DNA of 64,000 nt from Crossiella cryophila (GTDB taxonomy: Bacteria; Actinomycetota; Actinomycetes; Mycobacteriales; Pseudonocardiaceae), in contig NZ_JACHMH010000001.1 of NCBI RefSeq assembly GCF_014204915.1, positions 4,861,501 to 4,925,500 on the forward strand, in the 5' to 3' direction. Below, in pieces: positions 21,958 through 60,850 of this stretch. The position numbers were made by a program, and so were the translations under genes. Position 1 is the stretch's first letter. Every line of letters starts with the position of its first letter. The notes below the pieces were generated by a model. It saw only the letters and a list, made by a program, of their open reading frames with translations. It searched no databases and was not told where the DNA came from.

Positions 21958-21978
21958 TCCGCTGTTCCTCATTCCAGG

Positions 21979-30801: not shown

Positions 30802-30930
30802 CGTTGATCCCTCCCGCACGCACACCGGGCCGCGCGGGTGCGCCGGCCCTCTTCTCGCCAGTGGGCGGATCCCCCAGTGGACCGGCCTGGGAGGGATCTA
30901 TCAGCGCCGCGTTGTGCACCGCCGGGTTCG

Positions 30931-31027: not shown

Positions 31028-34000
31028 TCAGATTTCCCCTTCCTCCACTTCCGCCGCACCGGCCGGGACCGCGGCGGCGGCGACCAGGTGCAGCAGTGGG
31101 GCGGCGAAGAAGCGGGCCAGCGGGATGTCGCGGCGGAGTTCCTGGCGGGCCAGTTCGATGAATCGGATGGCGCGCACGCTGTCGCCGCCCAGGGCGAAGA
31201 AGCTGTCCTGGCGGCCGATCCGGGGGACGTCCAGGACCCTGGTCCACAGTTCGGCGATGGCGGTCTCCACCGGGCCGGTGGGGGTTTGCGCGGTTTCCGC
31301 GCGGGTGCCGCTGCGGGCGGCGATGGTGGCCCGGTCGACCTTTCCGTTGGCGCTGAGCGGGAACTCCGCGAACTCGGTGACCGAGTCGGGCACCATGTGG
31401 CCGGGCAGCCGGGCCGCGGCCCAGTCCAGCAGGGTGCGTTCCCCGATCTTGCCGGTGGGCACGATCGCGGCGCAGAGGCGGCCGCGGACCTGGACCACCA
31501 CGGCGCGCTCGACCGACTCGTGCTGGCCGAGCACGGCCTCGATCTCGCCGAGTTCGACCCGGTGGCCGCGCACCTTGATCTGCTGGTCGGTGCGGCCCAG
31601 GAACTCCAGCAGGCCGCCGGGCTGGTAGCGGCCGAGGTCGCCGGTGCGGTACCAGCGGCCGTCGGGGGTGTGCACGAACGACCGGGCGGTCAGTTCCGGT
31701 GCGCCGCGGTAGCCCAGGGCAACGCCCGCGCCGCCGATCCACAGTTCGCCGGGCACCCAGTCCGGGCAGTCCCGGCCGAAGGCGTCCACCACCCGGTAGC
31801 GCTGGTTGCGCAGCGGGTAGCCGTAGGGCACCGAGCGCCAGGCCGGGTCGACCTCGCGGACCTCCAGGGCGTTGGACCAGATGGCGGCCTCGGTGGCGCC
31901 GCCGAGGGCGACCAGCAGGGCGGCCGGGGCGGTGGCGGCCAGGCGGCCGGGCAGGTCGAGGCCGACCCAGTCACCGGAGACCAGGGCCAGCCGCAGGCTT
32001 TCCGGCGGCAGGCCGTTCTCGGCGACCACCAGGAGCATGTCCAGCAGGGTGGGCACCGTGTTCCACACCGTGACACCGTGTTCGCGGACCAGTTGGGCCC
32101 AGCGCCGGGCGTCCCGCCGTTCCTCCTCACCGAGGAGCACGAGTGCCCCGCCCGCGGACAGCAGGCCGAAGACGTCGTAGACGGAGAGGTCGAAGTCGAG
32201 CGCGGAGACCGCGAGCACCCGGTCCGCGGCGGTGACACCGAAGCGGGTGTTGATGTCCTCCACGGTGTTCACCGCGGCCCGGTGGGTGATCTCCACGCCC
32301 TTGGGCTCACCGGTGGAGCCGGAGGTGAAGATCACGTAGGCCAGCGTTTCGCCGTCCACAGTGGACAGCTGGGTGGCCGGGGTGTGGTTGTGCGCGTCGG
32401 CGATGGTGAGCACGGTGCCGGGCAGGCCGCGGGCCAGGTCGTCGGTGAGGGCCAGGCGGGCACCGGAGGTGGTGATGATCCTGTCCCGGCGCACGGCTGG
32501 CTGGTCGACGCCGACCGGGACGTAGGCGCCGCCCGCGGCGTGCACGCCGAGCACGGCGGCGATCTGGTCGATGCCCTTGGGCAGGTGCAGCACAACGGGT
32601 TCGCCGGGGGTGACGCCGTGTTCGGCGAGCAGTCCGGCCACCCGCAGGGCGCGGTCGGCGAGGTCGCCGTAGGTCACCCGGTCCGGGCCCGCGATCAGCG
32701 CGACCGCGTCCGGGCGGCGGGCGGCCTGGGTGAAGAAACCGTTGTGCAGCAGGGTTTCCTGCTGGGCTTCTTCGGTGGCGTTGACCTCGGATCGGGTTTC
32801 CTGTTGCGGGGCGGGCAGTGCGGCGGGGACGGGGCCGGTCCAGTCCTCGGTGCAGAGCCAGTCGACCAGGCGCAGGTAGGACTCGAACATGGCGTCCAGG
32901 AGTCCGGCCGGGAACAGGTCCTCGACGGCGTCCCAGTTCAGTTCGACCGCGATGCCGTCCTGGCCATGTCGTTCCACCACCTGATGGTCCAGCCACACCT
33001 GCGGGGTCTGCGAGACACCCCAGACCGGGTTGGCCAGCAGGCCCTCGCCGGCGGGGGCGGCGGTGGGCAGGCCGAGGGCGCTGGTGAACACCACCGGCAT
33101 GGTCACCTCGGCCTCGCCGGTGCGCCTGCTGCGTTCGCGCAGCACCTGGATGGCGGAGACCTCGCGGTGGTCCAGTGCGCGCCACAGGTCGGCCTGCACC
33201 GCGCGCACCCGGTCCAGCCACGACTCGCCGGGCTGGGGCTGGTAGCCGACCAGCAGCAGCGAGGTGAAGTCGCCGAGCACCCTGGCCACGTGCGGGTGCA
33301 CCTCGCGGCGGTCGAACAGGGTCAGGTTCAGGGTGAGGTCGGGGCGGGCACTGAACGCGCTGAGCACCTCGGCGAAAGCGGTGAGCAGCACCGAGGACGG
33401 GGTGCTGCCGTACTCGCGGGACAGCTGCAGAACCCGTTGCCAGCGCACGGGATCGAGCACGGTGGCCCGCCGGGTGAACCGGGGTTCGGCGATCTCGGCC
33501 GGGTCGATGGCCAGTGGCAGGGCGGGGCCGGGTGGCAGGGTGTCCAGGCGGGTGGACCAGTAGGCGGTGGAGGCGGCGGCGGGTTCGGCGGGCAGGCTGC
33601 TGACGTAGTCCCGGAAAGACAGGTCGATCGGCGGGAGTTCGGTGTCGGCGTGATCGTGCAGGGCGGCGAGTTCGGTGTAGACGATGAGCACGCTCAGCGC
33701 GTCCGCGATGAGGTTGTCGATGCCGATGGCCAGCCGGGTGCTGGATCCGTTGGGGGCCACCGCGATGCGGAACAGCGGCCACTCCGCCGGGTCGAACACG
33801 TGGTGCGACAAGGCTTCCCGGAGCTGCTCCGGGTTTTCCGCGACCTCGACGGTGAAGTGCGGGACCTCGGGCAGCACGCGCTGGTCACCGCGGTCGTCGA
33901 AGACCGCGCGCAGCATGCCGTGCCGGGCGATGAGCTGGTTGACCGCGGCTTCCAGCCGGGTCAGGTCCAGTTCGGCCACGTCGTACTCGCGGTAGAAGTG

Positions 34001-37000
34001 GCAGCCGACGCCGCCGAGGGTGAACTCGGTGGAGCGGCCCAGCCAGTAGGCGCGTTGCACGTCGGTGGGCTGGAACGGGTCGAACTGGTGGTCGGGGTCG
34101 GCGACGAGTTCCAGTTGTGCGGGGCCACCTTCGCCCGCGGTGAGGGTGGTGGCGAAGGCGGACAGGACCGGGTTGGCGAACAGGTCGGACAGCGCCGCGC
34201 CCGCCAGTCCCTCGGCGCGCAGTTTGCCGATCAGGCGGGTGGCCAGGAGGGAGTCGCCGCCGAGGGTGAAGAAGTCGTGTTCACGGCCGACCGCCGACAC
34301 ACCGAGGAGTTCCTGCCAGATCTGTGCGACCAGCACCTCGGTTTTGGTGCTGGGCAAGGTGATCACCTGTGCGGACCCGGCGTCGCGTTCTTCCAAGAGG
34401 GTGCGCAGGGCCGGGCGGTTGACCTTGCCGTTGGTGGTCAGGGGGAAGGCGGGCAGGGTGAGCAGCACGCCGGGCACCATGGCGGTGGGCAGCCGGTCGG
34501 TGACGAAGGCCAGCAGTTCGGTCTCGTCGACCTCGCCGGTGACCGCGGCGGCCAGTACCCGGCGGTCCAGCACGGTGGCCACCGCGGCGCTGACCGCCGG
34601 GTGGTCGGTGAGCGCGGCCTCGACCTCGCCGAGTTCGACCCGGTGGCCGCGCAGCTTCACCTGGTGGTCGGCCCGGCCGAGGAACTCCAGCACGCCGCCG
34701 TCGCGGTAGCGGGCCAGGTCGCCGGTGCGGTACCAGCGGCGGCCGTCGTGTGCGACGAAGCGATCCGCGCTGCGGGCCGGATCGTTGCGGTAGCCCAGTG
34801 CGACACCGGCGCCGCCGATCCACAGGTCGCCGGGCACCCAGTCCGGGCAGTCCCGGCCCAGGGCGTCGACCACTCGACATCGGACGTTGTCCAGTGGTGT
34901 GCCGTAGGGCACCGAGGTCCACTGTGGATCGACCGCGGTGACCTCGCAGACGGTGGAGTGGATGGCGGTCTCGGTAGTGCCGCCCAGTCCGGCGAAGCGC
35001 GCGCCGGGGGCGAGGGCGGCCAGGCGGGCGGGCAGGTCCACGGTGACCCAATCGCCGCCGAGGATGACGGTGCGCAGCGGGAGCGCGGTGTCGGCGGCGG
35101 TGAGGACCATGTCCAGCAGGGCGGGCACGCAGTTGAGCACGGTGGCGTTGTGCTGCAACAGTTCTCGCACCCAGGCGGAGGCGTCCCGGTGGCCCTGCTC
35201 ACGCACGCACACCACCGCGCCGCCGACGGAGAGCGGGCCGAAGATGTCGTAGACGGACAGGTCGAATTCCAGTGCGGACAAGGCAAGCGTGCGGTCGGAT
35301 GCGCCGATCTTGAAGCGGGCGTTGAGATCCGCGATGGTGTTGACCGCGGCGGCGTGGCTGATCTCCACGCCCTTGGGCTCCCCGGTGGAGCCGGAGGTGA
35401 AGATCACGTAGGCCAGGTCGTCGGCGAACACGGGTTCCGGCAACGGTTCCGCGGTGACCTCGATGCTGTCGACCACGTGTGTCACGCCCGCGGCACGCAG
35501 GATGCGCTCCCGGCGCACCGGCGGCGCGTCCACGGCCAGTGGCAGGTAGGCGGCCCCGGCGGCAAGCACACCGAGCACCGCCACCACCTGCTCTGGCCCC
35601 TTGGGCAGGGAGACCGCGACCAGTCCGGCCGCGCCTTGGGCACGCAGGTGGCCCGCGACCCGGAGTGCGGCAGTGGCGAGTTCGCCGTAACTCAGGACTT
35701 CCTGGCCGCACAGCAGGGCGGGCGCATCCGGGGTTTCCTTGGCCTGGGCGAAGAACTGCTCGTGCAGGGCCTGGGGCTGGCGGGGTACGTCGGTGGCGTT
35801 GACCCGGTCGCGGATCTCGGTCTGGATGGCGGGCAGCAGTGGGCCGACCTCGGTGGTCCAGGCCTCGGCGGTGCTGAGCAGGCGGTCCAGCAGGCCGCAG
35901 TAGGCGGTGAACATCGCTTCGGGCACGCCGGGGGTGAAGGCGTCCTCGCGGATGTCCCAGTTGACCAGCAGGCCGTCGTTGAGTTCGGTGACCTGGGCGT
36001 CCAGCCACACCTGCGGGCCCTGGGAGATGATCCAGGCGGCCTCGCCGAAGGTGTCCCTGACCTGGTGTGAGAACAGCTCGCCCAGGCCGAGCGCGCTGGT
36101 GTAGACCACGGGGGCGAGCACCTGTTCGCCGTGCAGGCGGGACAGGTCGCGCAGCACGTCGACGCCGGAGTGCGCGGTGTGCGCGACATCGGCGTGGAAG
36201 CGTTGCTGCAACCGGGCGGCACGCTCGGCGAAGCCACCGGGCAGGCCGCCGTCCCATTCCAGGAGCACCGAGGAGGTGAAGTCGCCGACCAGGGCGTCCA
36301 CGTCGGGGTGCAGGGGTTCGCGGTCGAACAGTGGCAGGTTCAGCAGGAATCGCGGGTCGGCGCTCCACCCGGTCAGGGTCTCGGCGAACACCGCGGCCAG
36401 GGCCATTGCCGGGGTCAGGCCGTGCCGCTGGGCGTGGGTGGTCAGCGCGCGGACTTCGGCGGGGTCCAGCCAGCGGTGCCTGCGCTGCACCACGGGGACG
36501 CCGCCGCCGGTGGTGGGCAGCCGTGGTGCGCCGGGCAGTTCGGGCAGGCGATCCCGCCAGTACGCCAGGTCGGCGGCGGTGGGTTCGGCCTGCCGGTCGG
36601 CGAGGTAGCGGGGGAAGCTGTAGGCCAAGGGCGGCAACGGGTTTCCGGCGTAGGCGGTGGCCAGGTCGGCCAGCAGCACCCGCAGGCTGAGCGCGTCCGC
36701 GGCCACCATGTCCAGGTTGACGTGCACCCGGGTGCGGCCCTCCGGCAGCAGGGAGAGTCGCACGTCGAAGACCTCGCCGGCGGCGATGTCCATGGCGCGG
36801 TGGGACAACCGCTCGCGCAACGCGGCCAGGTCGGGGTCGCGGTGCACGGTCAGGCCGGGCCAGCGGGACGCGCCGACGTGCTGGGTGCCGTCATCGCCGA
36901 TGCGCACCCGCAGCATGCCGTGCCGCTCGATCACCTGGCGCACCGCGGATTCCAGCCGCTCCGGGTCGATCCCCTCGCCGTCGAACTCGTGGTAGAAGTG

Positions 37001-37360
37001 CGCGGCCACGTCACCGAGCCGCTGGCCTGGCTGGCGGCCCACCCAGTAGGCGTGCTGCATCAACGCCAGTGGGAACGGCGCGCTCTCGTCGATCTCGGCG
37101 AGCACCGGCGCGGCCACCACCGCGGGGGCCTCGGCCGCGGTGAGCAGGGCCTGCCAGGCGGCCGGTCGCGGATCGGCGACCAGGTCACCGAAAGCGATAC
37201 GCAGTCCGGCTTTCCGCCACGCTCCGGCCAGGCGCATCATGGTGATGGAGTCCAGGCCGAGTTCGATGAGGTTGTCCTCGGGGCCGATCTGCTGCTCGGG
37301 CAGGTCGAGGGTGCTCGCCAGCAGCTTGGTCAGCGCAGCGGGGTCGGTCGGGTGGAACAC
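31028..37360 (-). CDS. NRPS B: ArCP-Cy-A-PCP-Cy-A-PCP
   Basis: This 2,110-residue synthetase begins with a carrier domain (LGLDSITM, attachment Ser38), as in PchE and HMWP2 where it holds the aryl starter. Cy1 has DMVAAD (D217-D222). A1 is at about 520-990 with FDLSVYD. PCP2 has LGGDSLLA. Cy2 has DNLIAD (D1215-D1220). A2 is at about 1527-2013 with a Cys-type pocket (by-eye code D-L-Y-N-L-S-L-I-W), and PCP3 has LGGDSVRA. A1's pocket reads D-L-Y-N-I-G-L-I-H, part Cys-like and part Thr-like. No release domain is present. The C-terminus is acidic (EVEEGEI), a likely docking tail for NRPS A. The GTG at 37360 has AGAGAGGAAA just upstream and lies 17 bp after the P450 stop. Confidence 0.93.
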   Translation of the reverse strand: MFHPTDPAALTKLLASTLDLPEQQIGPEDNLIELGLDSITMMRLAGAWRKAGLRIAFGDLVADPRPAAWQALLTAAEAPAVVAAPVLAEIDESAPFPLALMQHAYWVGRQPGQRLGDVAAHFYHEFDGEGIDPERLESAVRQVIERHGMLRVRIGDDGTQHVGASRWPGLTVHRDPDLAALRERLSHRAMDIAAGEVFDVRLSLLPEGRTRVHVNLDMVAADALSLRVLLADLATAYAGNPLPPLAYSFPRYLADRQAEPTAADLAYWRDRLPELPGAPRLPTTGGGVPVVQRRHRWLDPAEVRALTTHAQRHGLTPAMALAAVFAETLTGWSADPRFLLNLPLFDREPLHPDVDALVGDFTSSVLLEWDGGLPGGFAERAARLQQRFHADVAHTAHSGVDVLRDLSRLHGEQVLAPVVYTSALGLGELFSHQVRDTFGEAAWIISQGPQVWLDAQVTELNDGLLVNWDIREDAFTPGVPEAMFTAYCGLLDRLLSTAEAWTTEVGPLLPAIQTEIRDRVNATDVPRQPQALHEQFFAQAKETPDAPALLCGQEVLSYGELATAALRVAGHLRAQGAAGLVAVSLPKGPEQVVAVLGVLAAGAAYLPLAVDAPPVRRERILRAAGVTHVVDSIEVTAEPLPEPVFADDLAYVIFTSGSTGEPKGVEISHAAAVNTIADLNARFKIGASDRTLALSALEFDLSVYDIFGPLSVGGAVVCVREQGHRDASAWVRELLQHNATVLNCVPALLDMVLTAADTALPLRTVILGGDWVTVDLPARLAALAPGARFAGLGGTTETAIHSTVCEVTAVDPQWTSVPYGTPLDNVRCRVVDALGRDCPDWVPGDLWIGGAGVALGYRNDPARSADRFVAHDGRRWYRTGDLARYRDGGVLEFLGRADHQVKLRGHRVELGEVEAALTDHPAVSAAVATVLDRRVLAAAVTGEVDETELLAFVTDRLPTAMVPGVLLTLPAFPLTTNGKVNRPALRTLLEERDAGSAQVITLPSTKTEVLVAQIWQELLGVSAVGREHDFFTLGGDSLLATRLIGKLRAEGLAGAALSDLFANPVLSAFATTLTAGEGGPAQLELVADPDHQFDPFQPTDVQRAYWLGRSTEFTLGGVGCHFYREYDVAELDLTRLEAAVNQLIARHGMLRAVFDDRGDQRVLPEVPHFTVEVAENPEQLREALSHHVFDPAEWPLFRIAVAPNGSSTRLAIGIDNLIADALSVLIVYTELAALHDHADTELPPIDLSFRDYVSSLPAEPAAASTAYWSTRLDTLPPGPALPLAIDPAEIAEPRFTRRATVLDPVRWQRVLQLSREYGSTPSSVLLTAFAEVLSAFSARPDLTLNLTLFDRREVHPHVARVLGDFTSLLLVGYQPQPGESWLDRVRAVQADLWRALDHREVSAIQVLRERSRRTGEAEVTMPVVFTSALGLPTAAPAGEGLLANPVWGVSQTPQVWLDHQVVERHGQDGIAVELNWDAVEDLFPAGLLDAMFESYLRLVDWLCTEDWTGPVPAALPAPQQETRSEVNATEEAQQETLLHNGFFTQAARRPDAVALIAGPDRVTYGDLADRALRVAGLLAEHGVTPGEPVVLHLPKGIDQIAAVLGVHAAGGAYVPVGVDQPAVRRDRIITTSGARLALTDDLARGLPGTVLTIADAHNHTPATQLSTVDGETLAYVIFTSGSTGEPKGVEITHRAAVNTVEDINTRFGVTAADRVLAVSALDFDLSVYDVFGLLSAGGALVLLGEEERRDARRWAQLVREHGVTVWNTVPTLLDMLLVVAENGLPPESLRLALVSGDWVGLDLPGRLAATAPAALLVALGGATEAAIWSNALEVREVDPAWRSVPYGYPLRNQRYRVVDAFGRDCPDWVPGELWIGGAGVALGYRGAPELTARSFVHTPDGRWYRTGDLGRYQPGGLLEFLGRTDQQIKVRGHRVELGEIEAVLGQHESVERAVVVQVRGRLCAAIVPTGKIGERTLLDWAAARLPGHMVPDSVTEFAEFPLSANGKVDRATIAARSGTRAETAQTPTGPVETAIAELWTRVLDVPRIGRQDSFFALGGDSVRAIRFIELARQELRRDIPLARFFAAPLLHLVAAAAVPAGAAEVEEGEI

Positions 37361-37377
37361 GGGGTTTCCTCTCTCGT

Positions 37378-38553
37378 TCACCAGGCCACCGGCAGCACGC
37401 GCGGACCGCGCAGGAACGCGGCGGGCTTCCAGCTGACCTCGCCTGCCAGGCGCAGGCCCGGCAGCGACCGGGTCAGCGCGCGCAGTGTTTCCTGGAGTTG
37501 CACGCGGGCCAGGGCGGCGCCAACGCAGTGGTGGCTGCCGTGCCCGAAGGCCAGGTGCTGCCGGGGCGGGCGGTTCAGGTCGAGTTCGTCGGGATCGGGG
37601 TAGCGCGCCGGGTCGTGGTTGGCGGCGCTGAGGGCCACCAGCACCGCCTCGCCGCGGCAGATGTGCTGGTCGCCGATGTCCAGGTCGGTGCGGGCGTAGC
37701 GGGGCATGGCCGCGGCCGAGGGCATGGCCACCACCCGCAGCAGTTCCTCCACCGCCTCGGCGATCGACTCCGGTTCGGCGCACAGCCGGGCGTAGGCGCC
37801 GGGGGTGGTGAGCAGGGTGTGCGCGAAGTTGGCCAGTTCGGTGGCGGTGGTCTCGTAACCGCCGAGCAGCAGCGCGATGCACAGCTGCACCAGCTCCACT
37901 TCGGACAGTCGCTCGCCGTCGGCGCCCGCCTCGGCCAGTGCGCTGAGCAGGTCATCGGCCGGGTCGGTGCGCCGCAGCGTGAGCAGCCCGCCCATATAGG
38001 CCATCAGCGCCCCGGTGGCCTGGCCGAACTGCTCGGGGGTGCTGCCACTGGTGGAGAGCACCACCTCGCTCCAGGCCCGGAACCGGTCCCGGTCGGCCAC
38101 CGGCACGCCGAGCAGCTCGCAGATCACCTGGATCGGCACCGGCAGCGCGACGTGCTCGACCAGGTCGGCCGGACCACCGTGTGCCCGCAACGCCTGTACC
38201 GCCTGCTCGGCCTGTGCGCGCACGAACGGCCGCAGGGCCTCGGCGCGCCTGCCGGTGAACGCCTGGGCGACCACCTTGCGCAGCCGGGTGTGCTCTGGCG
38301 GGTCCATGGCCACGATGCCGATCGGACTCACCGGCGTGGTGCGCGGCGCGTCCCGCCTGCTGGCCTCGGCGCGGCTGAACCGGGGATCGGCCAGCACCGC
38401 GCGGGCTTCCTCATGCCGGGTGACCAGCCAGGCCGGTTCACCGTAGGGCAGGCGCACCCTGGTCAGGCCGGGACACTGCCGGATCTCGGCATATTCCTGC
38501 GCCAGGGCAAGGCTTTCCGGGTGGTTGAACGGGTACGGTCGCTCCGCCGACAT
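37378..38553 (-). CDS. Cytochrome P450 (NRPS cluster, second copy)
   Basis: This 391-residue bacterial P450 has the I-helix motif LLGGYETTATEL, an ExxR (EELLR) and the heme loop FGHGSHHCVGAALAR. The Ala of the usual AGxxTT motif is replaced by Gly. The ATG shares one base with the stop of the upstream P450 (TGATG). It lies between the first cluster P450 and NRPS B and is clearly co-transcribed. It may hydroxylate, oxidise a thiazoline to a thiazole, or act on a PCP-bound residue; none can be chosen from the sequence. Confidence 0.93.
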   Translation of the reverse strand: MSAERPYPFNHPESLALAQEYAEIRQCPGLTRVRLPYGEPAWLVTRHEEARAVLADPRFSRAEASRRDAPRTTPVSPIGIVAMDPPEHTRLRKVVAQAFTGRRAEALRPFVRAQAEQAVQALRAHGGPADLVEHVALPVPIQVICELLGVPVADRDRFRAWSEVVLSTSGSTPEQFGQATGALMAYMGGLLTLRRTDPADDLLSALAEAGADGERLSEVELVQLCIALLLGGYETTATELANFAHTLLTTPGAYARLCAEPESIAEAVEELLRVVAMPSAAAMPRYARTDLDIGDQHICRGEAVLVALSAANHDPARYPDPDELDLNRPPRQHLAFGHGSHHCVGAALARVQLQETLRALTRSLPGLRLAGEVSWKPAAFLRGPRVLPVAW

Positions 38554-39755
38554 CAGCGCAGCCTCAGCGTCAGGGTCTCCAGGCCGTGCATGGCGGTGCT
38601 GTGCCGCCAGCGCAACTCGTCCACAGTGGACACCAGCTCGATCTCGGTGAAGCGGTCCAGCAGTCGGCCGAAGGCGATCTCGCCTTCCAGTCGGGCCAGT
38701 GGCGCGCCAACGCAGTAGTGCATGCCGTGCCCGAAGGCCAGGTGCCCGCCTGCCGCCCTGGTGATGTCCAGGCGGTCGGGTTCGGCGAAGCGGTCGCTGC
38801 GGTTGGCTGCCAGCCAGGACACCATCACGAAGTGCCCCTCGGGGATGCGCACGCCGCCGAGTTCGACGTCCTCGGTGGTGTAGCGCGGCGAGGACAGGTT
38901 GTTCGGGGTCTCATAGCGCAGGAACTCCTCGACCGCGTTGCGCAGCAGCGAGCGGTCCGCGCGCAGCAGGGCGAGCTGGTCGGGGTGGCGCAGCAGGGCG
39001 AGCATCCCGCTGGAGAGCAGGTTGACCGTGGTCTCGAAGCCGCCGGTGAGCAGCACGACGGCGGTGGCGATCAGCTCGCGGCGGGAGAGCCGGTCGCCGT
39101 CCTCGCTGACGTGCACCAGTTCCGAGAGCAGGTCCTCGGTCGGCCCGGCCCGTTTGGCCTCGACCAGGTCGCCGAGGTAGGCGGCCATCCGCATGGAGGC
39201 CGCGCCGATCTCCTCCGGGGTGGTGGCCGCGACCATGGTGCGTGACCAGTCCACGAAGTCATCGCGGTCGGCGAAGGGCACGCCGAGCAGTTCGCAGATG
39301 ACCTGGATCGGCAGCGGGTAGGCGAAATCGGCCAGGAACTCCACCGAGTCCTTGCCAGCCATGGCATCCAGGAGTTCGTCGGTGATCTGCTCGATGCGTT
39401 CGCGCATCGGCTCCACCGAGCGGGTGGTGAACGCCTTGGCCACCAGCTTGCGCAGCCGGGTGTGATCCGGCGGGTCCAGGTTGAGCAAGTTCATCACCAG
39501 GTCGTCGGAGAAGGAACTCTCCGCGTCCGGGCCGATCCGCAGCCGTTCCAGGCGGTCGTAGACGCGGTGGCTGCTGAACCGGGCGTCGGTCATCACCGCG
39601 CGGGCCTCGGCGTACCCGGTCACCAGCCACACCGGGAAACCGCCCGGCAGCACGGCGAATCGCACCGGGGTGGTCTCGCGCATGCCGGCGGCGACGGTGT
39701 GGGAGTCCTGGATGAACTCCTCGCCGAGCAGCAGGGCATCCCTCATGTCGAGCAT
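38553..39755 (-). CDS. Cytochrome P450 (NRPS cluster, first copy)
   Basis: This 400-residue P450 has the I-helix motif LLTGGFETTVNLL, ExxR (EEFLR), and heme loop FGHGMHYCVGAPLAR. The ATG has AGGAG 6 bp upstream and follows the AsnB stop by 10 bp. It is related to but clearly distinct from the next P450, so the pair probably does two successive or different oxidations. Known thiazoline siderophore clusters usually have at most one P450, so two are notable. No ferredoxin gene is nearby. Confidence 0.93.
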   Translation of the reverse strand: MLDMRDALLLGEEFIQDSHTVAAGMRETTPVRFAVLPGGFPVWLVTGYAEARAVMTDARFSSHRVYDRLERLRIGPDAESSFSDDLVMNLLNLDPPDHTRLRKLVAKAFTTRSVEPMRERIEQITDELLDAMAGKDSVEFLADFAYPLPIQVICELLGVPFADRDDFVDWSRTMVAATTPEEIGAASMRMAAYLGDLVEAKRAGPTEDLLSELVHVSEDGDRLSRRELIATAVVLLTGGFETTVNLLSSGMLALLRHPDQLALLRADRSLLRNAVEEFLRYETPNNLSSPRYTTEDVELGGVRIPEGHFVMVSWLAANRSDRFAEPDRLDITRAAGGHLAFGHGMHYCVGAPLARLEGEIAFGRLLDRFTEIELVSTVDELRWRHSTAMHGLETLTLRLR

Positions 39756-39765
39756 CGAGTTCTCC

Positions 39766-41607: not shown

Positions 41608-41608
41608 A

Positions 41609-54078: not shown

Positions 54079-55556
54079 GCCTGTGCTACTCCTCGGGTGT
54101 CGTGCGGGGAGATCGGGGTGAGCAGGCGGGCGACCGCGGTCGCCGGATCGTCCTGCCCTGGGAAGAGATGTGCTGCCGACCCGGTGGTGGCCACGCGGCC
54201 GCCGTGCAGGACCACAACCTGGTCCGCGGTGACGGCCACGTGCGGGTCGTGGGTGATCAGGACGACGGCGAGGCCGAGCCGTGCGCGCACGTCGGCGAGC
54301 ACGGCCAGGACCTCCTCCTGCGCACTGGTGTCCAGGGCCGAGGTGGCCTCGTCGCAGAGCAGCACCTCGGGTCCGGCGGCCAGCGCGCGGGCCAGTGCGA
54401 CCCGTTGCCGTTGCCCGCCGGAGAGTTCGCCGGGCAACCGGTCGGCGAACTCCCCGGGCAGGCGCACCAGTTCCAGCAACCGGCGCACGTCTGCCTCGGT
54501 CGTGGTGGTGCGGCGCAGGGTGCTGGTCGGTCGGGACAGTGCGGTGCGCACGGTCTGGTAGGGGTGCAGGGCGTCGGCCGGGTTCTGCGCGACCAGGCCG
54601 AGTGCGGCCCGCTGGGCGAGGTTCCGCTTGCGGACGTCCGGGGCGAGCAGGGTGTCGCCGAGCCGGATCTGGCCGTCGCCCTGCGGGTGCAGGCCGGTGA
54701 TCCGGCGGGCCAGGGTGCTCTTGCCCGCGCCGGAGGCGCCGAGCACCACCAGCAACTGTCCGGAGTGGACGGTGAGGTCGACCCCGGCGAGCACGGTCCG
54801 TTTGCCGTGCCGGGCGGAAAGTCCGCGCACGGTCAGCACTTCCCGGCCCGACTCACCCGTGCCGCGCTGCCCGGCGGTGCGGATCGGGCGGTCCAGTGGG
54901 CGGCCGTCGCGCACCACCTTGCCCCGCTCCAGTTCCAGCACCCGGTTGGTCAGCGCGGCCACCGTGCCGTGGTCGTGGCTGATCCACACCAGGCCGGTGC
55001 CGGACGCCCGGACCCGGGCCAGCTCGGCCAGGACCTCTTGGGTGGCAAGGACATCCAGTGCGGTGGTCGGTTCGTCCAGCACGAGCAGTGCGGGCCGTCC
55101 GGCCAGTGCGGCGGCCAGTGCGACGCGTTGCTGCTGGCCACCGGAAAGCTGGTGCGGGTAGCGGCGAGCGAGGTCGGCGGGCAGTCCCACCCCGGCCAGC
55201 AACTCCGGCACCGCACCGCGACCGCGGGCCGCGGTGCGCAGGATCGAACCAACCCTGGCATAGGGATTCAGCGAGCCGCCGGGGTCCTGCCCGAGATAAC
55301 CGAGTACCCGCCCGGCCACGCCGGGGGCGCGGCGGGGCAGCATGTCGTGGCCGTCCACCAGCACCCGGCCGCCGAGGTGGCGCACGCCGGGCCGCAGGTG
55401 CCCGAACAGCGCGAGCGCCAGGGTGGTCTTGCCGCTGCCGGAGGGGCCGACGATCCCGACCGACTCACCACGGCCCAGCTCCACCGACACGCCGTCGAGC
55501 AGTCGCTGATCGCCCGCGCCGAGCGCGAGGTCTTCCAGTCGTACCAAGGGTTTCAC
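54075..55556 (-). CDS. Dual ATPase of Opp/Nik/Cnt-type ABC importer (DppD-DppF fusion)
   Basis: This 493-residue protein contains two ABC domains: the first with GPSGSGKTTLAL, LSGGQQQRV and LLVLDEPTTALD, the second with GASGAGKSTLAR, LSGGQRQRV and VLLCDEATSALD. Fusion of the two nucleotide-binding subunits is common in actinobacteria for peptide/nickel importers. It powers the two permeases and binding protein encoded directly upstream. The GTG at 55556 overlaps the permease stop (GTGA); the earlier in-frame ATG at 55655 lies within the permease gene. Confidence 0.93.
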   Translation of the reverse strand: MKPLVRLEDLALGAGDQRLLDGVSVELGRGESVGIVGPSGSGKTTLALALFGHLRPGVRHLGGRVLVDGHDMLPRRAPGVAGRVLGYLGQDPGGSLNPYARVGSILRTAARGRGAVPELLAGVGLPADLARRYPHQLSGGQQQRVALAAALAGRPALLVLDEPTTALDVLATQEVLAELARVRASGTGLVWISHDHGTVAALTNRVLELERGKVVRDGRPLDRPIRTAGQRGTGESGREVLTVRGLSARHGKRTVLAGVDLTVHSGQLLVVLGASGAGKSTLARRITGLHPQGDGQIRLGDTLLAPDVRKRNLAQRAALGLVAQNPADALHPYQTVRTALSRPTSTLRRTTTTEADVRRLLELVRLPGEFADRLPGELSGGQRQRVALARALAAGPEVLLCDEATSALDTSAQEEVLAVLADVRARLGLAVVLITHDPHVAVTADQVVVLHGGRVATTGSAAHLFPGQDDPATAVARLLTPISPHDTRGVAQA

Positions 55557-56329
55557 GCCAGCACCGCCTTGGCGCGGGCGCCGACGCCGTCGGCGACCAG
55601 GGTGGCCGAGACCGCGAGCAGCGCGATGGCCAGTGCCGGGGCCAGCAGTGCCCACGGTTGCAGGGCCACCCCGGGCAGCGCCTCCACCACGAGCAGTCCC
55701 CAGTCACTGCCGGTGCCGCTGATGCCGAGGAATCCGGCCGCGGCCACCAGGTACACCGAGAGCACGAACCGCAAACCCAGGTCCGCCAACAAAGTTCCGG
55801 CCACCAGGGGCAGCACCTCGCGGGTGAGCAGCCAGCCAATGCCCTCGCCACGCAGCACGGCGGCCTCCACGTGGCCGCGGTGGCGCACCTGGTCGGCGGT
55901 GGCCCTGGCCACCCGCGCGGACAGCGGCGCGCTGACCAGCACCACCGCCAGCACCAGTCCGGCCCGGCTGGGCAGCGCGGTGAGCACGAGCAGGAGCAGC
56001 AGCACCGGCGGCACCGCGGCGAGCACGTCCAGCAGCCGGAACAGGGTGGCGTTCACCCAGCGCAGCAACGCCGACAGCAACCCGGTCAGCGCGCCCAGCC
56101 CGGTGCCCGCGACCGCGGCCAGCAGACTGGTCAGCAACAGCGGTCTGCCACCGGCGAGCAGCCGGGAGAGCACATCGCGGCCCAGGTGATCGGTGCCCAG
56201 CAGGCGTCCGGGGCCAGGCGGCGCGTAGGGCGGGCCGACCGGTGCGGTCACGCTGTGCGGGGCCAGTTCCGGGCCGAGGAGCACGAGCACGATCACCGCG
56301 CCCAGCAACAGGAATCCGGCCCGCCTCAT
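55553..56329 (-). CDS. ABC importer permease, DppC/NikC/CntC type
   Basis: This 258-residue membrane protein has five or six hydrophobic segments and the DppC-type start GPPYAPPGPGRLLGTDHLGRDVLSRL, which is diagnostic for the C-type permease. The EAA-like loop region is RHRGHVEAAVLRGEG. The ATG at 56329 overlaps the DppB-like stop (ATGA). It pairs with the gene upstream to form the membrane channel of the importer. Confidence 0.92.
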   Translation of the reverse strand: MRRAGFLLLGAVIVLVLLGPELAPHSVTAPVGPPYAPPGPGRLLGTDHLGRDVLSRLLAGGRPLLLTSLLAAVAGTGLGALTGLLSALLRWVNATLFRLLDVLAAVPPVLLLLLVLTALPSRAGLVLAVVLVSAPLSARVARATADQVRHRGHVEAAVLRGEGIGWLLTREVLPLVAGTLLADLGLRFVLSVYLVAAAGFLGISGTGSDWGLLVVEALPGVALQPWALLAPALAIALLAVSATLVADGVGARAKAVLA

Positions 56330-57285
56330 CCGGTCACCGCCGTGCGCAGGCGCGGGGTGAGCAGCACCGCGGCCAGATCGGCCAGCACCAGCGCGAGCAG
56401 CATCCCGCCGCCCAGCACCACGACCAGGGCCTGCACCACCGGCAGGTCGCCGGAGCGGACCGAGGTGACCAGCAGTTCGCCCACACCCGGATAGCCGAAG
56501 ACCTGTTCCACCAGCACCGCCCCGCCGACGAAGCCGCTGGCGCTGATCAGCCAGACCTGCACGGCCACCGGCAGCACCGAGGGCACCACCGCGCGCAGGG
56601 CGATGGTCAGCGGGGGAGTGCCGTTGAGGGTCAGGAACTCCACCTGCGGGGAGCGCAGGGTGGCCACCGCGCAGGCCCGGATAACCCGCACCGCGTAGGC
56701 CAGGCCGACCAGCAGCAGGCTCAGCACCGGCAGCACCAGCACCGCGGGCTGGGCCAGCGGACTGACCCCGGCCGGTACGAAGGACAGCGCGGGCAGCCAG
56801 CCCAGCCCGGTCGCGAACACCACGACCAGCGCACCGGCCACCACGAATTCGGGCAGGGACACCAGGGTCAGCGCGGCCGAGGAGACGATCCGGTCGGTGG
56901 CCCGGCCCCGGTGCCAGGCGGCGAGCACGCCGAAGAACACCGACAGCGGGGCCAGCAGCAGCACCGCGAGCACGGCCAGCAGCAGCGAGTTGCCGATCCG
57001 GTCGGAGAGCACCTCGGTGACCGGCCGGTGGTTCGCCGCGTGGCCGAGATCGCCGTGCAGCAGTCCCCAGGCCCACTCGGTGTAGCGGGTGAGCACCGGC
57101 CGGTCCAGGCCGAGGTGGTCGCGGATCTCGGCGATCCGCGCCGGGGAGGTGTTCGGGCCGAGCCGGGCGGTCACCGGGTCACCCGGCAGCAGGTCCACAC
57201 CCACGTACACCACCACGGTCAGCAGCACGAGCAGTCCGCCACTGAGCGCGGTGCGGCGCAGCACCAGGGCCAGTCCAGGGTTCAC
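56326..57285 (-). CDS. ABC importer permease, DppB/NikB/CntB type
   Basis: This 319-residue membrane protein has six hydrophobic segments and the family features LLPGDPVTARLGPN near the N-terminus, a periplasmic-side helix IRDHLGLDRPVLTRYTEW, and VLVEQVFGYPGVGELL near the C-terminus. The GTG start at 57285 overlaps the binding-protein stop (GTGA). The long frame to 58422 is a shadow of the binding protein gene. It is the B-type permease partner of the next gene. Confidence 0.92.
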   Translation of the reverse strand: MNPGLALVLRRTALSGGLLVLLTVVVYVGVDLLPGDPVTARLGPNTSPARIAEIRDHLGLDRPVLTRYTEWAWGLLHGDLGHAANHRPVTEVLSDRIGNSLLLAVLAVLLLAPLSVFFGVLAAWHRGRATDRIVSSAALTLVSLPEFVVAGALVVVFATGLGWLPALSFVPAGVSPLAQPAVLVLPVLSLLLVGLAYAVRVIRACAVATLRSPQVEFLTLNGTPPLTIALRAVVPSVLPVAVQVWLISASGFVGGAVLVEQVFGYPGVGELLVTSVRSGDLPVVQALVVVLGGGMLLALVLADLAAVLLTPRLRTAVTG

Positions 57286-58829
57286 GCGAGACCGGCCTTG
57301 CCCAGGTAGGGGTACTTGGCCTCGTCCCGGACCTGCACGCCGGCCACGGTCTTGCGGGCCACGCTGAGCACGTCGGCCTGGCCCCACACCACGGTGTTGC
57401 CGCGCTCGGCCATCACCTTCTGCACCTGCGCCCATGCCTGCGCGCGCACCGTGTCGTCGGTGGCGCCGAGCGCGCGCTGGAAGGCCGCGGTGAACTCCGG
57501 GTCGGCCAGCCCGAGCGAGGGGAACGCGCCGAGTCGCCCGTAGGTGACCGCGAGCGGGGACGGGCCGATGGAGAAGGTCACGCTGTTGGCCTCGGCGAGC
57601 GCGGCCGGTTCGAAGAACTCCTGCAGGCCGACCAGCTGCACCCGGGCGTCCAGGCCGATTTCCTTGAGCTGCTCGGCGAAGAGCTGGGTGGAGGCGTTGT
57701 AGCCCAGCACGTATTCGGCCGAGCGCAGGGTCACCACCGCGCCCTCCGCACCCGCCTCCTTGATCAGCTTGCGGGCCGCGTCCACATCGCGGGGCAGCGG
57801 CGGCAGGTCGCTGTAGTGCCGGGCGCCCTTGCCGAACAGGTCGTTGCCGGGTGCGCCGTAGCCGAGCAGCACGGTGTCCACCAGTGCTTGACGGTTGACC
57901 GCGAGCCGGGCCGCGCGGCGCACGCGGGGGTCGTCGAAGGGCTTGCGGGTGGTGTTGAGCACGAAGGCGAAGCCGACCCGGTTGGCCTCGCCCGCGGTGC
58001 GGATCTCCAGATCCCCGCCGGGCACACCGGTTTTGGCGGTGGCGACCGGGACGTCGCCCGCGTAGTCGGCTTGGCCGGAGGTCACCGCGCGCACCGCGGT
58101 CTGCGGATCGCTCAGGCTCAGCAGCAGGATCTCGTCGGCGGGGGCCTGGCCGTCCCAGTGGCCGTCGAAGCGGACGAGCCTGGTCTGCCTGCCCGCCTCG
58201 AAGGAGTCCACCCGGTACGGTCCGGTGCCGATCGCCTTGCCCGCGCTGAAGTCCTTGGCCCCGTCCTTGACGATCTTGGCCGGGATCGCGGCCAGCAACT
58301 GGGCCGGATCGCCGACCGGGGTCAGCGTCGGCACCACGACGGTCTTGGCGTCGGTGGCGCTGGCCTTGGCCACGTCCAGGTAGGGCGCGAGCTGGCTGGG
58401 GAAGGGCCGGTCGGGGGAGCACATGTAGCGCAGGCTGTAGACCACGTCCTGCGCGGTGAATGGCGAACCGTCGTGCCAGCGCACGTTCTCCCGCAGCCGC
58501 AACGTGAACGACTTGGCGTCCTTGGCGACCTCCACCGCGGTGGCCAGCGAGGGCACGGAATCACTGCCGCGCAACACGAACAGCGAGTCGTAGACGACGT
58601 CGTTGCGCACGAAGTCCACCGGTGTGCCCCCGGCGTAGGGGTCCAGGCTCTCCGCCGGGCCGCCGCCGAAGACCGCCCGCAGCGCGCCACCCTTGCGCGG
58701 CGTGGCCTGGTTGCCACCGGCGAGGGGCACGCCGCCGGGGGCGGGCGCGCCGCCGCACGCGGCGAGGACGGGGCCGGTGGCCAGGACGAGCGCGATCCCC
58801 CGGAACAGGTCACGGCGGTTCAGCGGCAT
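57282..58829 (-). CDS. Lipoprotein substrate-binding protein, NikA/CntA/DppA (family 5)
   Basis: This 515-residue family 5 binding protein has a signal with MPLNRRDLFRG followed by a lipobox LAAC, so it is a lipoprotein on the outer face of the membrane. Segments such as LRLRENVRWHDGSPFTAQDVVYSL and AARLAVNRQALVDTV are typical. The family binds peptides, nickel chelates or opine-type metallophores (CntA/staphylopine). Placement in a thiazoline NRPS operon makes uptake of a metal-metallophore complex a fair inference. The ATG has AAGGAG 7 bp upstream and follows the VOC gene by 27 bp, the largest gap in the operon. Confidence 0.92.
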   Translation of the reverse strand: MPLNRRDLFRGIALVLATGPVLAACGGAPAPGGVPLAGGNQATPRKGGALRAVFGGGPAESLDPYAGGTPVDFVRNDVVYDSLFVLRGSDSVPSLATAVEVAKDAKSFTLRLRENVRWHDGSPFTAQDVVYSLRYMCSPDRPFPSQLAPYLDVAKASATDAKTVVVPTLTPVGDPAQLLAAIPAKIVKDGAKDFSAGKAIGTGPYRVDSFEAGRQTRLVRFDGHWDGQAPADEILLLSLSDPQTAVRAVTSGQADYAGDVPVATAKTGVPGGDLEIRTAGEANRVGFAFVLNTTRKPFDDPRVRRAARLAVNRQALVDTVLLGYGAPGNDLFGKGARHYSDLPPLPRDVDAARKLIKEAGAEGAVVTLRSAEYVLGYNASTQLFAEQLKEIGLDARVQLVGLQEFFEPAALAEANSVTFSIGPSPLAVTYGRLGAFPSLGLADPEFTAAFQRALGATDDTVRAQAWAQVQKVMAERGNTVVWGQADVLSVARKTVAGVQVRDEAKYPYLGKAGLA

Positions 58830-58856
58830 CGAGGATCTCCTTGGGGGATGGTGGGT

Positions 58857-59549
58857 TCAGCGGGTGGTGGCTGGGCGGAGCAGTGCGCCGCGGGTCAGCG
58901 CCGGGTCGAGTTCGGTGGTGAGCCCGGCCAGTTCGACGGCGAGCACGCCGGTCTGCTCGGCCTCCCGGAACTCGAAGTCGCCGCCGTCGCCGACGAGCAG
59001 CCGGAGCACCGGCAGGTCGGCCGGGCTCACCCCGAGCACCACCTTGGTCAGCGCGGTGGCCCCGTTGGGGTGGCTCACCGACGGCGGGTGCTGCGGCGGG
59101 TCGTAGGGGGTGACCAGGAACGGCGCCCGGTCGGCCCTCGGGTAGGCGAAGCGGAACCTGGTCTGCTGCCCGTCCGGTTTGGTGCGGGTCCAGTTCACCA
59201 CCCGGCCGCAGCCGGAACCGTTGGCGCGCAACGCGTTACGCGTGTCGGTGAGCCGATCGTCGTCGAGCAGCACGGCCGCGTCGCAGAAACCTTCCGGCTG
59301 CACGGCCCAGCGCACCATCCGCCGCCCGGCACCCCGGCCGAAGGCGATCTCCAGTGGCCAGCGCAGGAACTTGGCGCCCTTGGGTGCGGTGAGCAGTTCC
59401 AGCACCGGCCCCTCGCGGAACCAGACGTGCGCGTGCAACGCCTTGTCCTCGGCGGTGGCGTAGTGCACCTCGAAGCCGAGCGCCCGGTAGTCGGCGACCG
59501 CGCGCCGCAGGTCGTCGACCTTGATCAGCACATGGCTGCACCTGCTCAT
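58857..59549 (-). CDS. VOC/glyoxalase-like protein
   Basis: This 230-residue protein starts SHVLIKVDDLRRAVADYRALGFEVHYAT, a typical VOC/Glyoxalase_3 opening, and continues HAHVWFREGPVLELLTAPKG. A second, more divergent half (TALTKVVLGVSPADLPVL...) completes a two-module fold. The ATG at 59549 overlaps the imide reductase stop by 4 bp. It might be a self-protection or tailoring protein of the metallophore pathway. I cannot assign a substrate. Confidence 0.75.
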   Translation of the reverse strand: MSRCSHVLIKVDDLRRAVADYRALGFEVHYATAEDKALHAHVWFREGPVLELLTAPKGAKFLRWPLEIAFGRGAGRRMVRWAVQPEGFCDAAVLLDDDRLTDTRNALRANGSGCGRVVNWTRTKPDGQQTRFRFAYPRADRAPFLVTPYDPPQHPPSVSHPNGATALTKVVLGVSPADLPVLRLLVGDGGDFEFREAEQTGVLAVELAGLTTELDPALTRGALLRPATTR

Positions 59550-60652
59550 CGGGTTCCTCTCGCGTCCTCGGCGGCCACCGCGGCGAGCAGCTCGCCCACG
59601 GGCAGCACCGGCGGTTCCTCGGGGTGGATGGGTTGCGGCACGCCGAGCCGGGCGGTCAGCGCGGACCAGGCGGTGGCCACACCCAGCGCCCACTGGCCGG
59701 TGCGGGCGCGGCGGGCGGGTTCGCCGATGTCCTGGACCAGCCGGTGCAGCGCGGTGCGCACCGCGTCCGGCCACAGCTCGGCGAAGACCTGGTGGAAGCT
59801 GCCCGCCTCCGGGCCGAGCACGGTGGTGCTGGTCGCGGCGAGCCGGTCGGTGCCGGGCCCGGCCATGATCAGCCGCCCGGTGTCGTCGCGGCCGGCGTGC
59901 AGACGTGGTTGCCACAGCACCGGTCCGTGCGTGTCGGCCAGGGTGAGCACCCCGGCGTCGCCGCCGACGGTGATCCGGTGGAAGAAGTGCGCGTGGTTGT
60001 CCGCGTCGGCCGGGTGCAGCTGGTTCTGCACCCGCAGCGTCACCGGCAGCCCGCCGACGGTGGCGTGCAGGGCGCGGTAGGGCTGGTCGTCCGGGCCGGA
60101 GGTCTCGCCGAAGCCGAACGGCCGCACCGAACCCGCGATCCGGGCGAGGATCTCGACCAGGGGGTAGGCGACCTGGTTCGCGCAGGCGGCGTCGACGAAC
60201 CGCAGCGGTCCGGACCGCCGCAGCACCTCGACCGCGGCCAGGAACCGGCGCACCGGCGCGAGATCCGGGTAGAGCGTGTTCACCGCGTAGGCCGCGCCAC
60301 CGCGCCGGGCCGCGCGCAGGTTGTCCGCGATCTCCCCGGCGTGCACCGGGTGCTCCTGCAGCACGTGCGTGCCGCGGCTCAGGAACGCCTGTGCCAGTTC
60401 GGATCCGGGCCCGCCGAGCAGACCGGAGCGCACCACCACGCAGGCGATGTCCACCTCGGGCACCTGGTCGACGGCGGTGTAGAGCGGCACGTCGTGGCGG
60501 CTGGCGAGCGCGCGCGAGTACGCGCCGCCGGTGCTGAGCACACCGGCGAGCGCGAAGGACTCCGGCGCGGCGCGCACCGCGTCCAGGTAGACCCGCCCGA
60601 AGGCGGTGCCGGCGACCACGACCCGCGCCGACCGCGGCTGGGCTTGGTTCAA
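59546..60652 (-). CDS. Thiazolinyl imide reductase (Irp3/YbtU/PchG type)
   Basis: This 368-residue Gfo/Idh/MocA-type Rossmann protein has RVVVAGTAFGRVYLDAV and the characteristic QEHPVH segment (canonical QEHPLH in YbtU/PchG). Known relatives use NADPH to reduce a PCP-bound thiazoline to a thiazolidine in yersiniabactin and pyochelin assembly. It is the first gene of the operon. The start is TTG at 60652, supported by GGAGAAAG 5 bp upstream; no better ATG or GTG exists before conserved sequence. This gene gives the clearest functional label to the cluster. Confidence 0.9.
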   Translation of the reverse strand: MNQAQPRSARVVVAGTAFGRVYLDAVRAAPESFALAGVLSTGGAYSRALASRHDVPLYTAVDQVPEVDIACVVVRSGLLGGPGSELAQAFLSRGTHVLQEHPVHAGEIADNLRAARRGGAAYAVNTLYPDLAPVRRFLAAVEVLRRSGPLRFVDAACANQVAYPLVEILARIAGSVRPFGFGETSGPDDQPYRALHATVGGLPVTLRVQNQLHPADADNHAHFFHRITVGGDAGVLTLADTHGPVLWQPRLHAGRDDTGRLIMAGPGTDRLAATSTTVLGPEAGSFHQVFAELWPDAVRTALHRLVQDIGEPARRARTGQWALGVATAWSALTARLGVPQPIHPEEPPVLPVGELLAAVAAEDARGTR

Positions 60653-60720: not shown

Positions 60721-60739
60721 ATAGGCTAGGCTCGCCTAA
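60721..60739 (-). promoter_or_regulatory. IdeR/DmdR-like iron box
   Basis: ATAGGCTAGGCTCGCCTAA matches the actinobacterial DtxR/IdeR/DmdR consensus (TTAGGTTAGGCTAACCTAA) at 15 of 19 positions by my count. It lies 69 bp upstream of the TTG start of the imide reductase and touches a -10-like TATGTA on the minus strand (60723-60718). With iron bound, IdeR-type repressors occupy such sites, so iron repression of the operon is expected. Confidence 0.75.
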
Positions 60740-60820: not shown

Positions 60821-60850
60821 AATACAGTTGACAATGGCAATCATTGTCAA
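60821..60850 (-). promoter_or_regulatory. Second promoter with Fur/Zur-family palindrome in its spacer
   Basis: TTGACAATG (60829-60837, plus strand) and CATTGTCAA (60842-60850) are perfect 9-bp inverted arms with a 4-5 base spacer. On the minus strand this gives -35 TTGACA (60850-60845), an 18-bp spacer and -10 TGTATT (60826-60821), so the palindrome lies across the promoter core. The inner TGGCAATCATTGTCA agrees with a Zur box of the TGAAAATCATTTTCA type at 12 of 15 positions (consensus from memory). The rest of 60653-61080 shows no gene I can support. Confidence 0.65.

Follow-up and report, generated by a model that had tools for sequence, protein, structure and literature searches.

Sorangibactin, from Sorangiineae MSr11367, is made by a gene cluster (srb; OQ368584) that has been called coelibactin-like. 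As described in PMC10127202, this cluster encodes nonribosomal peptide synthetases (NRPSs) of seven and five domains with a cysteine thioesterase (Cys-TE), a saccharopine-dehydrogenase-like enzyme (SrbE), methyltransferases (MTs; SrbF and SrbG), a P450 that converts an oxazoline to an oxazole (SrbH), an Irp3-like enzyme (SrbI), a VOC protein (SrbJ), a ligase (SrbK), a salicylate synthase (SrbB) and transporters, as well as SrbA, an alpha/beta hydrolase, and SrbR, a regulator of the LysR type. In a 2023 paper, the structure of coelibactin, from Streptomyces coelicolor (SCO7676-7692), was still open, and sorangibactin is a relative whose structure and gene cluster were solved together. We report here an operon of this family in Crossiella cryophila, located in a stretch of 64,000 nucleotides (the window: positions 4,861,501-4,925,500 of a 10.06-Mb single-contig genome). 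At the level of the family, we consider it very probable that the operon serves the synthesis, export and re-uptake of a metallophore of the coelibactin/sorangibactin type. Three traits are new: the starter genes lie outside the operon, an AsnB-family gene adjoins a P450 gene, and Zur-type and IdeR/DmdR-type boxes are paired at the promoter. The subfamily offers new candidate producers and a defined tailoring pair.

A fifteen-gene operon of the coelibactin/sorangibactin family

The operon runs from 60652 to 31028 (window coordinates, used throughout unless stated) and comprises 15 genes, all on the minus strand. They are tightly packed: ten of the 14 junctions are 4-bp overlaps, the others measuring 27, 10, 1 and -1 bp. 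All 15 gene calls are backed by Pfam matches, and domains were assigned with Pfam and NCBIfam. Because an RHS-repeat gene lies downstream and a mannosyltransferase-like gene upstream, we treat the 15 genes as the natural unit, in agreement with an earlier note on this DNA. Corrected starts were checked for g02, g04, g05 and g06, that of the VOC gene moving to 59549; for NRPS-A, first placed at 31028-37882, a start near 37381 is more probable, giving 2117 amino acids. Rfam and tRNA scans of the window returned no match. In the list, Cy, A, PCP and ArCP denote heterocyclization, adenylation, peptidyl carrier and aryl carrier domains.

59546-60652, minus strand: g01, thiazolinyl imide reductase, Irp3/SrbI-like (TIGR01761, PDB match)
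58857-59549, minus strand: g02, VOC/glyoxalase-like protein, SrbJ-like (domain match, start corrected)
57282-58829, minus strand: g03, family-5 solute-binding protein, SBP_bac_5 (domain match)
56326-57285, minus strand: g04, importer permease B, BPD_transp_1 (domain match)
55553-56329, minus strand: g05, importer permease C, BPD_transp_1 (domain match)
54075-55556, minus strand: g06, importer fused double ATPase (domain match)
48637-54078, minus strand: g07, NRPS-B, SrbD-like: TubC docking-Cy-A(Cys-type code)-MT-PCP-TE (GYCLGG, Cys nucleophile)
46898-48640, minus strand: g08, half-ABC transporter (domain match)
45159-46901, minus strand: g09, half-ABC transporter (domain match)
44068-45162, minus strand: g10, saccharopine-dehydrogenase-like enzyme, imine-reductase fold, SrbE-like (domain match and model)
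41609-44071, minus strand: g11, tandem trans-MT, SrbF+SrbG-like (domain match, half-to-half alignment)
39766-41607, minus strand: g12, AsnB-family amidotransferase, Cys2 and SGGLDS (domain match and motifs)
38553-39755, minus strand: g13, P450a, adjoining this AsnB type in 11 of 11 loci
37378-38553, minus strand: g14, P450b, candidate oxazoline dehydrogenase like SrbH
31028-37381, minus strand: g15, NRPS-A, SrbC-like: ArCP-Cy-A(DLYNIGLIH)-PCP-Cy-A(DLYNLSLIW)-PCP

Relatives were collected by a tandem-MT search of 297 genomes of the family Pseudonocardiaceae (19 matched), an AsnB search of 390, and follow-up reads. An operon of the same kind (type A) is present in 12 genomes: the present one (G000), the congener G108, whose proteins are 90-98% identical, and G197, G101, G704, G015, G054, G082, G729, G699, G181 and G229. 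Five further genomes (G112, G203, G268, G068 and G096) carry a more distant type B.

Both NRPSs have the architectures described for the family, CP-Cy-A-CP-Cy-A-CP and Cy-A-MT-CP-TE (CP, carrier domain), the first carrier of NRPS-A presumably being an aryl carrier. The earlier note had read DxxxxD in all three condensation-type domains; indeed, the distal NRPS has it at residues 224 and 1222 and the proximal one at 199, with GDFTS downstream of each. We take these motifs to be Cy signatures; since so short a pattern as DxxxxD turns up at other places in both NRPSs too, position inside the condensation domain decides. The A-domain codes were read by our own method at nine positions fixed by motif anchors (the tenth lies outside this reading). 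A1 gives DLYNIGLIH, and A2 and A3 both give DLYNLSLIW, which we assume to be a cysteine code. In six other operons the A1 code is DL(Y/F)NLGL(I/V)H, the same motif halves occur in five more, and the relatives read repeat one GG/TTETAIH-type and two SG/ATEA-IW-type A domains. The TE nucleophile is a cysteine (GYCLGG) in all 12 type-A genomes.

The remaining genes complete the set. The leading gene, g01, scores 307 bits against TIGR01761 (cut-off 189), and its best PDB match is YbtU/Irp3 (4gmf), with QEHPVH aligned to QEHPLH, which bears out its earlier reading as a thiazolinyl imide reductase; a VOC protein, a trans-acting saccharopine-dehydrogenase-like enzyme and trans MTs accompany it. The two halves of the tandem MT g11 share 38% identity, and the MT of NRPS-B matches the first of them at 37%. 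The two transporter systems that had been noted are an importer of the NikA/Opp-like kind (an SBP_bac_5 protein, two permeases and a fused double ATPase) and a pair of MsbA-like half-ABC transporters. Likewise present, as noted, are AsnB, with Cys2 and SGGLDS, and two P450s, both of which carry the heme loop.

Set against the published description of srb, the core elements are each matched except SrbK and SrbB: the operon shares both NRPS architectures, the Cys-TE, equivalents of SrbE, SrbF/G, SrbH, SrbI and SrbJ, and transporters, while counterparts of SrbA and SrbR are both missing from it. It differs in having no salicylate synthase or ligase of its own (sorangibactin shares such starter genes with the related operons), and in its AsnB, extra P450, fused MTs and actinobacterial Zur/IdeR-type boxes. 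With coelibactin it shares the Cys-TE, the saccharopine-like enzyme, a P450, the NRPS logic and, putatively, Zur-type control (PMC10127202, PMC5472717, PMC12161575); it differs by its AsnB, by the VOC protein, which coelibactin is reported to lack, and by an iron box, of which none was reportedly recovered there. Mupirochelin (mch, Pseudomonas; PMC10080011) has in common with it a Cys/Thr-Cys-Cys prediction, a thiazolinyl reductase and two trans MTs, and its repression by iron and, more weakly, zinc may be a further shared trait; it differs in having its own salicylate genes, and its paper nowhere uses the term asparagine synthase. The reported formula of mupirochelin, C22H28N4O4S3, is also that of sorangibactin C, with different reported structures (PMC10080011, PMC10127202); the two may be one compound or close isomers.

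The earlier picture of a metallophore-type operon with three heterocyclizing modules thus holds. Since the core matches the published sorangibactin/coelibactin set enzyme by enzyme, its suggestions that the operon has no known match and departs from the coelibactin layout are not supported, although AsnB and the second P450 do go beyond the sorangibactin set. A caution attaches to the assignment: membership, and with it orthology to SrbC/SrbD or SCO7682/7683, is judged from architecture and gene content set against published descriptions.

Predicted pathway and starter supply

The product is likely a salicyl-oxazol(in)e-thiazolidine-thiazolidine with a modified C-terminus, as judged from the sequence. 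We infer the reactions from domains and motifs. A ligase encoded elsewhere would probably load salicyl-AMP onto the ArCP of NRPS-A, which would add Ser or Thr (giving an oxazoline) and then Cys (a thiazoline); NRPS-B would add and cyclize a second Cys. P450b may dehydrogenate the oxazoline, reduction of the thiazolines would fall to the Irp3-like and saccharopine-fold enzymes and their methylation to the tandem MT together with the MT of NRPS-B, and the Cys-TE would release the chain. With two imine-reductase-type enzymes and three MT domains pointing to two thiazolidines after the oxazol(in)e, the earlier expectation of a methylated thiazoline released by the TE is revised to this product and an atypical Cys-TE. 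At the fine level the prediction is weakened on two counts: the sequence fits either Ser or Thr at A1, and an acid, amide, thiolactone or hydroxamate at the C-terminus. The family's product is marked by a phenol-oxazole, N-methylthiazolidines and a C-terminal thiolactone; for a putative Ser-oxazole bis-N-methylthiazolidine, the calculated [M+H]+ would be 408.1046 as the acid, 407.1206 as the amide and 423.1155 as the hydroxamate, with 14.0157 added to each for Thr, and 507.1189 for a form with a homocysteine thiolactone.

The assignment of g10 as the reductase of the second thiazoline, alongside g01, draws on its predicted structure (predicted local distance difference test, pLDDT, 92). The nearest solved folds, at a template modelling (TM) score of about 0.7 and 12-20% identity, are carboxyspermidine dehydrogenases and saccharopine reductases; as these act on C=N bonds, g10 presumably does likewise. 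A PHROGs search with g10 gave no match. P450b is present in eight of the 12 type-A operons (with none seen in the stretches covered for G054, G082, G729 and G699). The P450 of the Alcanivorax cluster is 49% identical to P450b vs. 37% to P450a, which makes P450b the candidate SrbH-like oxazoline dehydrogenase. Neither P450 could be tied to CYP105N1, a name absent from the 60 top-ranking PDB chains listed for each.

Both salicylate genes are found elsewhere in the genome. Searches for a salicylate synthase and an aryl-AMP ligase drew no match from the window, nor from the G108 contig that carries the operon; the ligase is present in all ten type-A operons outside the genus, and the synthase stands directly upstream of the Irp3-like gene in all nine covered there (G181 was not covered at this position). 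Because the sibling operons carry the starter genes, we have not treated their location within the cluster as defining, a choice on which a strict reader may differ. The C. cryophila genome holds one salicylate synthase above the family cut-off (genome positions 3,820,054-3,821,304; four weaker matches fall below it), 143 bp from an IdeR-type box at 3,821,519, and a ligase with the motif HNFPLACPG at 3,866,481, 45 kb beyond. This region is about 1 Mb from the operon and unlinked to it; NRPSs, an ornithine/lysine N-monooxygenase, periplasmic binding proteins and FecCD are encoded between the two genes and around them. The interval C1:3812001-3878000 is a second salicylate siderophore region, which resembles amychelin-type clusters.

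We suggest that the operon draws its salicyl-AMP from this second cluster; cahuitamycin C offers a precedent for an unlinked starter gene (PMC4757757). The absent starter genes make the operon a clear test case for supply from one siderophore cluster to another. An alternative is that the starter is 2,3-dihydroxybenzoate (DHB) from a locus at 7.10 Mb, or some other acyl group. The operon's lack of starter genes would suit this, as would a ligase with the motif HNYPLSSPG at 7,099,745, near iron boxes: we take a C in this motif to mark salicylate-type and an S to mark DHB-type ligases. Yet the synthase stands beside the reductase in every operon covered in other genera, the C-type motif is found in five of five ligases read from relatives' operons, and the genome itself retains a salicylate synthase and a C-type ligase, so that we regard another starter as unlikely. 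The same ligase motif occurs in three congeners that lack a tandem-MT match (G016, G055 and G086).

The AsnB-P450a pair

Does AsnB belong to the pathway? Three best candidates were scored per genome in the AsnB search, and identity to g12 falls into two groups: 11 matches are at least 74% identical, and the next is 69%. P450a adjoins AsnB in 11 of the 59 AsnB loci, exactly those of the first group, and in none of the other 48 (one of these, L202, has a different P450 alongside, 39% identical). All 11 genomes with the pair carry a type-A operon, i.e., the pair is present in 11 of the 12 Pseudonocardiaceae operon genomes, inside the operon in nine and at a separate locus in G015 and G181. The pair is not confined to operons of the window's type: it recurs in all five type-B clusters read, at 63-67% (AsnB) and 58-60% (P450a) identity. 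This linkage to operon genomes and type-B clusters makes a shared tailoring step likely.

An alternative is that AsnB supplies asparagine or serves another pathway, so that neither protein tailors the product. AsnB homologues of about 46-69% identity are indeed common in Actinomycetes, and none is described for sorangibactin in the available text (PMC10127202). The twelfth operon genome, G229, also speaks against the tailoring step: it is outside the listed AsnB matches (E up to 1e-200), and its operon stretch gave no AsnB match at the score used. Against these stand the exact coincidence of P450a with the closest AsnBs, all in operon genomes, and the type-B pairs, and we find a role elsewhere improbable. 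AsnB was not found within the 30 named loci listed, a zero that is not evidence of absence since those stretches end at 10 kb and in one of them (L119, from the Allokutzneria genome G096) AsnB lies just beyond.

On balance we favor, with some reserve, a modification of the product by AsnB and P450a. Amidation of the C-terminal acid is the simplest form this could take, and we put it forward tentatively, as falling somewhat short of an even chance. The best PDB match of AsnB is 7ylz, named a hydroxyamidotransferase (710 bits). As a sign that g12 is specifically such an enzyme the match does not discriminate, as other AsnB loci are equally near 7ylz (46.7-55.4% identity vs. 53.6% for g12). The trichostatin/benzohydroxamate hydroxyamidotransferase TsnB9/SaHAT likewise belongs to the AsnB family, and the trichostatin N-oxygenase is AurF-like, not a P450 (PMC13418202, PMC5719088).

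The idea that the trichostatin hydroxamate is the work of a P450 and AsnB was set aside in view of this published oxygenase. Neither an AurF-like oxygenase nor the helper of the TsnB6/7/9 hydroxamate cassette is in the operon, which has AsnB only, with a P450 as its neighbor. A dual-metal metallophore from a single Zur- and IdeR-gated operon, a salicyl-oxazole-bis-thiazolidine with its C-terminal acid turned into a hydroxamate, AsnB amidating or transferring and P450a N-oxygenating, is a long shot. If true, a P450 would open a route to hydroxamates, and the modification would convert a ligand of the zinc type into one of the iron type. Among the matches listed from the open-licence literature, no paper treats coelibactin and asparagine synthase together.

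Promoter boxes, probable metal control and distribution

Two boxes lie upstream of g01:

60828-60850, no strand assigned: TTGACAATG-N5-CATTGTCAA, an inverted repeat with perfect arms that encloses a Zur/Fur-family 7-1-7 box (one mismatch)
60721-60739, minus strand: IdeR/DmdR-type iron box TTAGGCGAGCCTAGCCTAT (pattern scan)

The repeat overlaps a possible -35 element and is identical in G108. An iron-box pattern built partly from the window's own site, with one mismatch allowed, hit 13 places in the genome (16 strand hits) vs. none for a reversed-pattern control. The three inspected among the 12 other places are a siderophore-interacting protein/FecCD locus, the stretch separating the salicylate synthase from the N-monooxygenase, and the gene of a periplasmic binding protein. 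The iron-boxed siderophore-interacting protein/FecCD uptake locus is located at C1:4842172, about 50 kb from the operon.

The S. coelicolor Zur motif is tGaNNatSatNNtCa, a 7-1-7 palindrome (PMC5472717). A search for genome-wide proof of Zur with the 21-bp palindrome gave no signal (the exact site is unique; hits vs. control were 3 vs. 2 at up to two mismatches and 36 vs. 27 at up to three), and we therefore turned to a cross-genome comparison of the 7-1-7 box. Loci were scanned with TGANAATNATTNTCA (Zur-type, up to two mismatches) and with an IdeR consensus (up to five). With the window and G108 counted as one and G181 not covered, both boxes lie upstream of the first operon gene in eight of ten operons, including at least one operon in each of the six genera. 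The Zur-type box has no mismatch in G101, G197, G704 and G229, one in the window/G108 and G054, and two in G082 and G729. In G197, G054, G082, G704, G729 and G229 the boxes are farther upstream, consistent with a type-II thioesterase gene in first position, which Pfam confirmed in the three tested (G197, G054 and G229).

As a control, the Zur-type scan found no hit in six 20-kb blocks of the same genome (109.5 kb distinct, chosen as iron-box holders), in which a looser published Zur pattern with one mismatch found one. Shuffles of 441,725 bases of the relatives' loci (a set that left out the window, G101, G197, G054, G082 and G229) gave means of 0.1 Zur-type and 0.6 iron-type hits vs. three and four in the real sequence; one of those three and one of those four are not upstream of a type-A operon.

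Several observations argue against dual control. G699 has the iron box only and G015 neither box, and one genus supplies five of the ten operons, which therefore do not count as ten independent examples. There are stray boxes too: a second Zur-type hit in G729 is far from the operon, single hits of one or the other type appear in L118, L119/G096, G181 and G268, and G261, G267 and G142 show Zur-type hits with no iron box. The palindrome by itself is weak, 25 of 2000 shuffles reaching its 9-bp arm length. ZnuA-family promoters, tried as a Zur reference, yielded only one three-mismatch site in the C. cryophila genome, conserved in G108, and the genome scans brought out no Zur regulon; with this site and a weak palindrome, the "Zur" label is not proven.

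Taking both sides together, we hold with moderate confidence that transcription of the operon is gated by zinc and iron repressors, presumably Zur and IdeR. At coelibactin, Zur control is known and DmdR1 sites were reported as not recovered (PMC12161575); with an iron box here, the dual logic is a sequence-level difference from coelibactin. Iron is reported to repress the mupirochelin genes, and zinc to do so more weakly (PMC10080011). A 2025 paper linked a metallophore cluster to its metal by the kind of box, and the promoters here join iron- and zinc-type boxes.

A further possibility is that the compound acts chiefly as an antibiotic or a cytotoxic metal complex, in the manner of transvalencin or the uniformides, and not as a nutritional metallophore. 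Such a role would have parallels: uniformides are cytotoxic and resemble transvalencin A, one being a zinc complex, and mupirochelin is anti-oomycete (PMC10080011). The importer genes in the operon and the metal-type boxes upstream argue for nutrition, and we judge a mainly toxic role to be quite unlikely.

Yersiniabactin synthesis includes a polyketide synthase (PKS) module in HMWP1, and pyochelin synthesis has only two Cy modules; the operon has three Cy domains, and a domain search found no KS or AT domain in it. A new scaffold outside the family, i.e., a yersiniabactin- or pyochelin-like thiazoline siderophore with a C-methylated thiazoline released as the acid, is very improbable: three Cy domains, an Irp3-like reductase and an embedded MT are shared with both of those pathways, whereas no PKS domain was found here and the VOC protein, saccharopine-like enzyme, trans MTs and Cys-TE correspond to the set described for sorangibactin.

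The other matches of the tandem-MT search are G288, with a more distant NRPS pair, and G230, G261, G267 and G142, with MT and saccharopine-like genes and no strong NRPS match in the stretch read. Zur-type 7-1-7 boxes with no iron box are found at G261 C26 8001 and 12051, L255 17959 and L256 17805; these loci have MT and saccharopine-like genes, a whole or partial importer and no strong NRPS match in the stretch. In the type-B cluster of G112, the only one read for this trait (C1, about 2155029-2160988; L242:9129-15088), AsnB and the ligase flank a KS-AT-DH-KR-ACP PKS of 1618 amino acids and a KAS-III-like protein, which suggests a polyketide aryl starter such as 6-methylsalicylate in place of salicylate. 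The family is also present in Alcanivorax sp. 24 (L116), Paenibacillus arenosi (L112) and Alkalilimnicola (L118), i.e., in Gram-negatives and Firmicutes, suggesting wide horizontal spread.

Beyond the operon, the RHS-repeat gene (21979-30825) encodes a protein of 2948 amino acids with a C-terminal non-specific endonuclease-like domain. It is followed on the same strand by genes for a subtilase (19240-21972) and an FG-GAP protein (18254-19444), and the window also encodes a 1187-amino-acid nSTAND1 NTPase with WD40 repeats (14651-18214).

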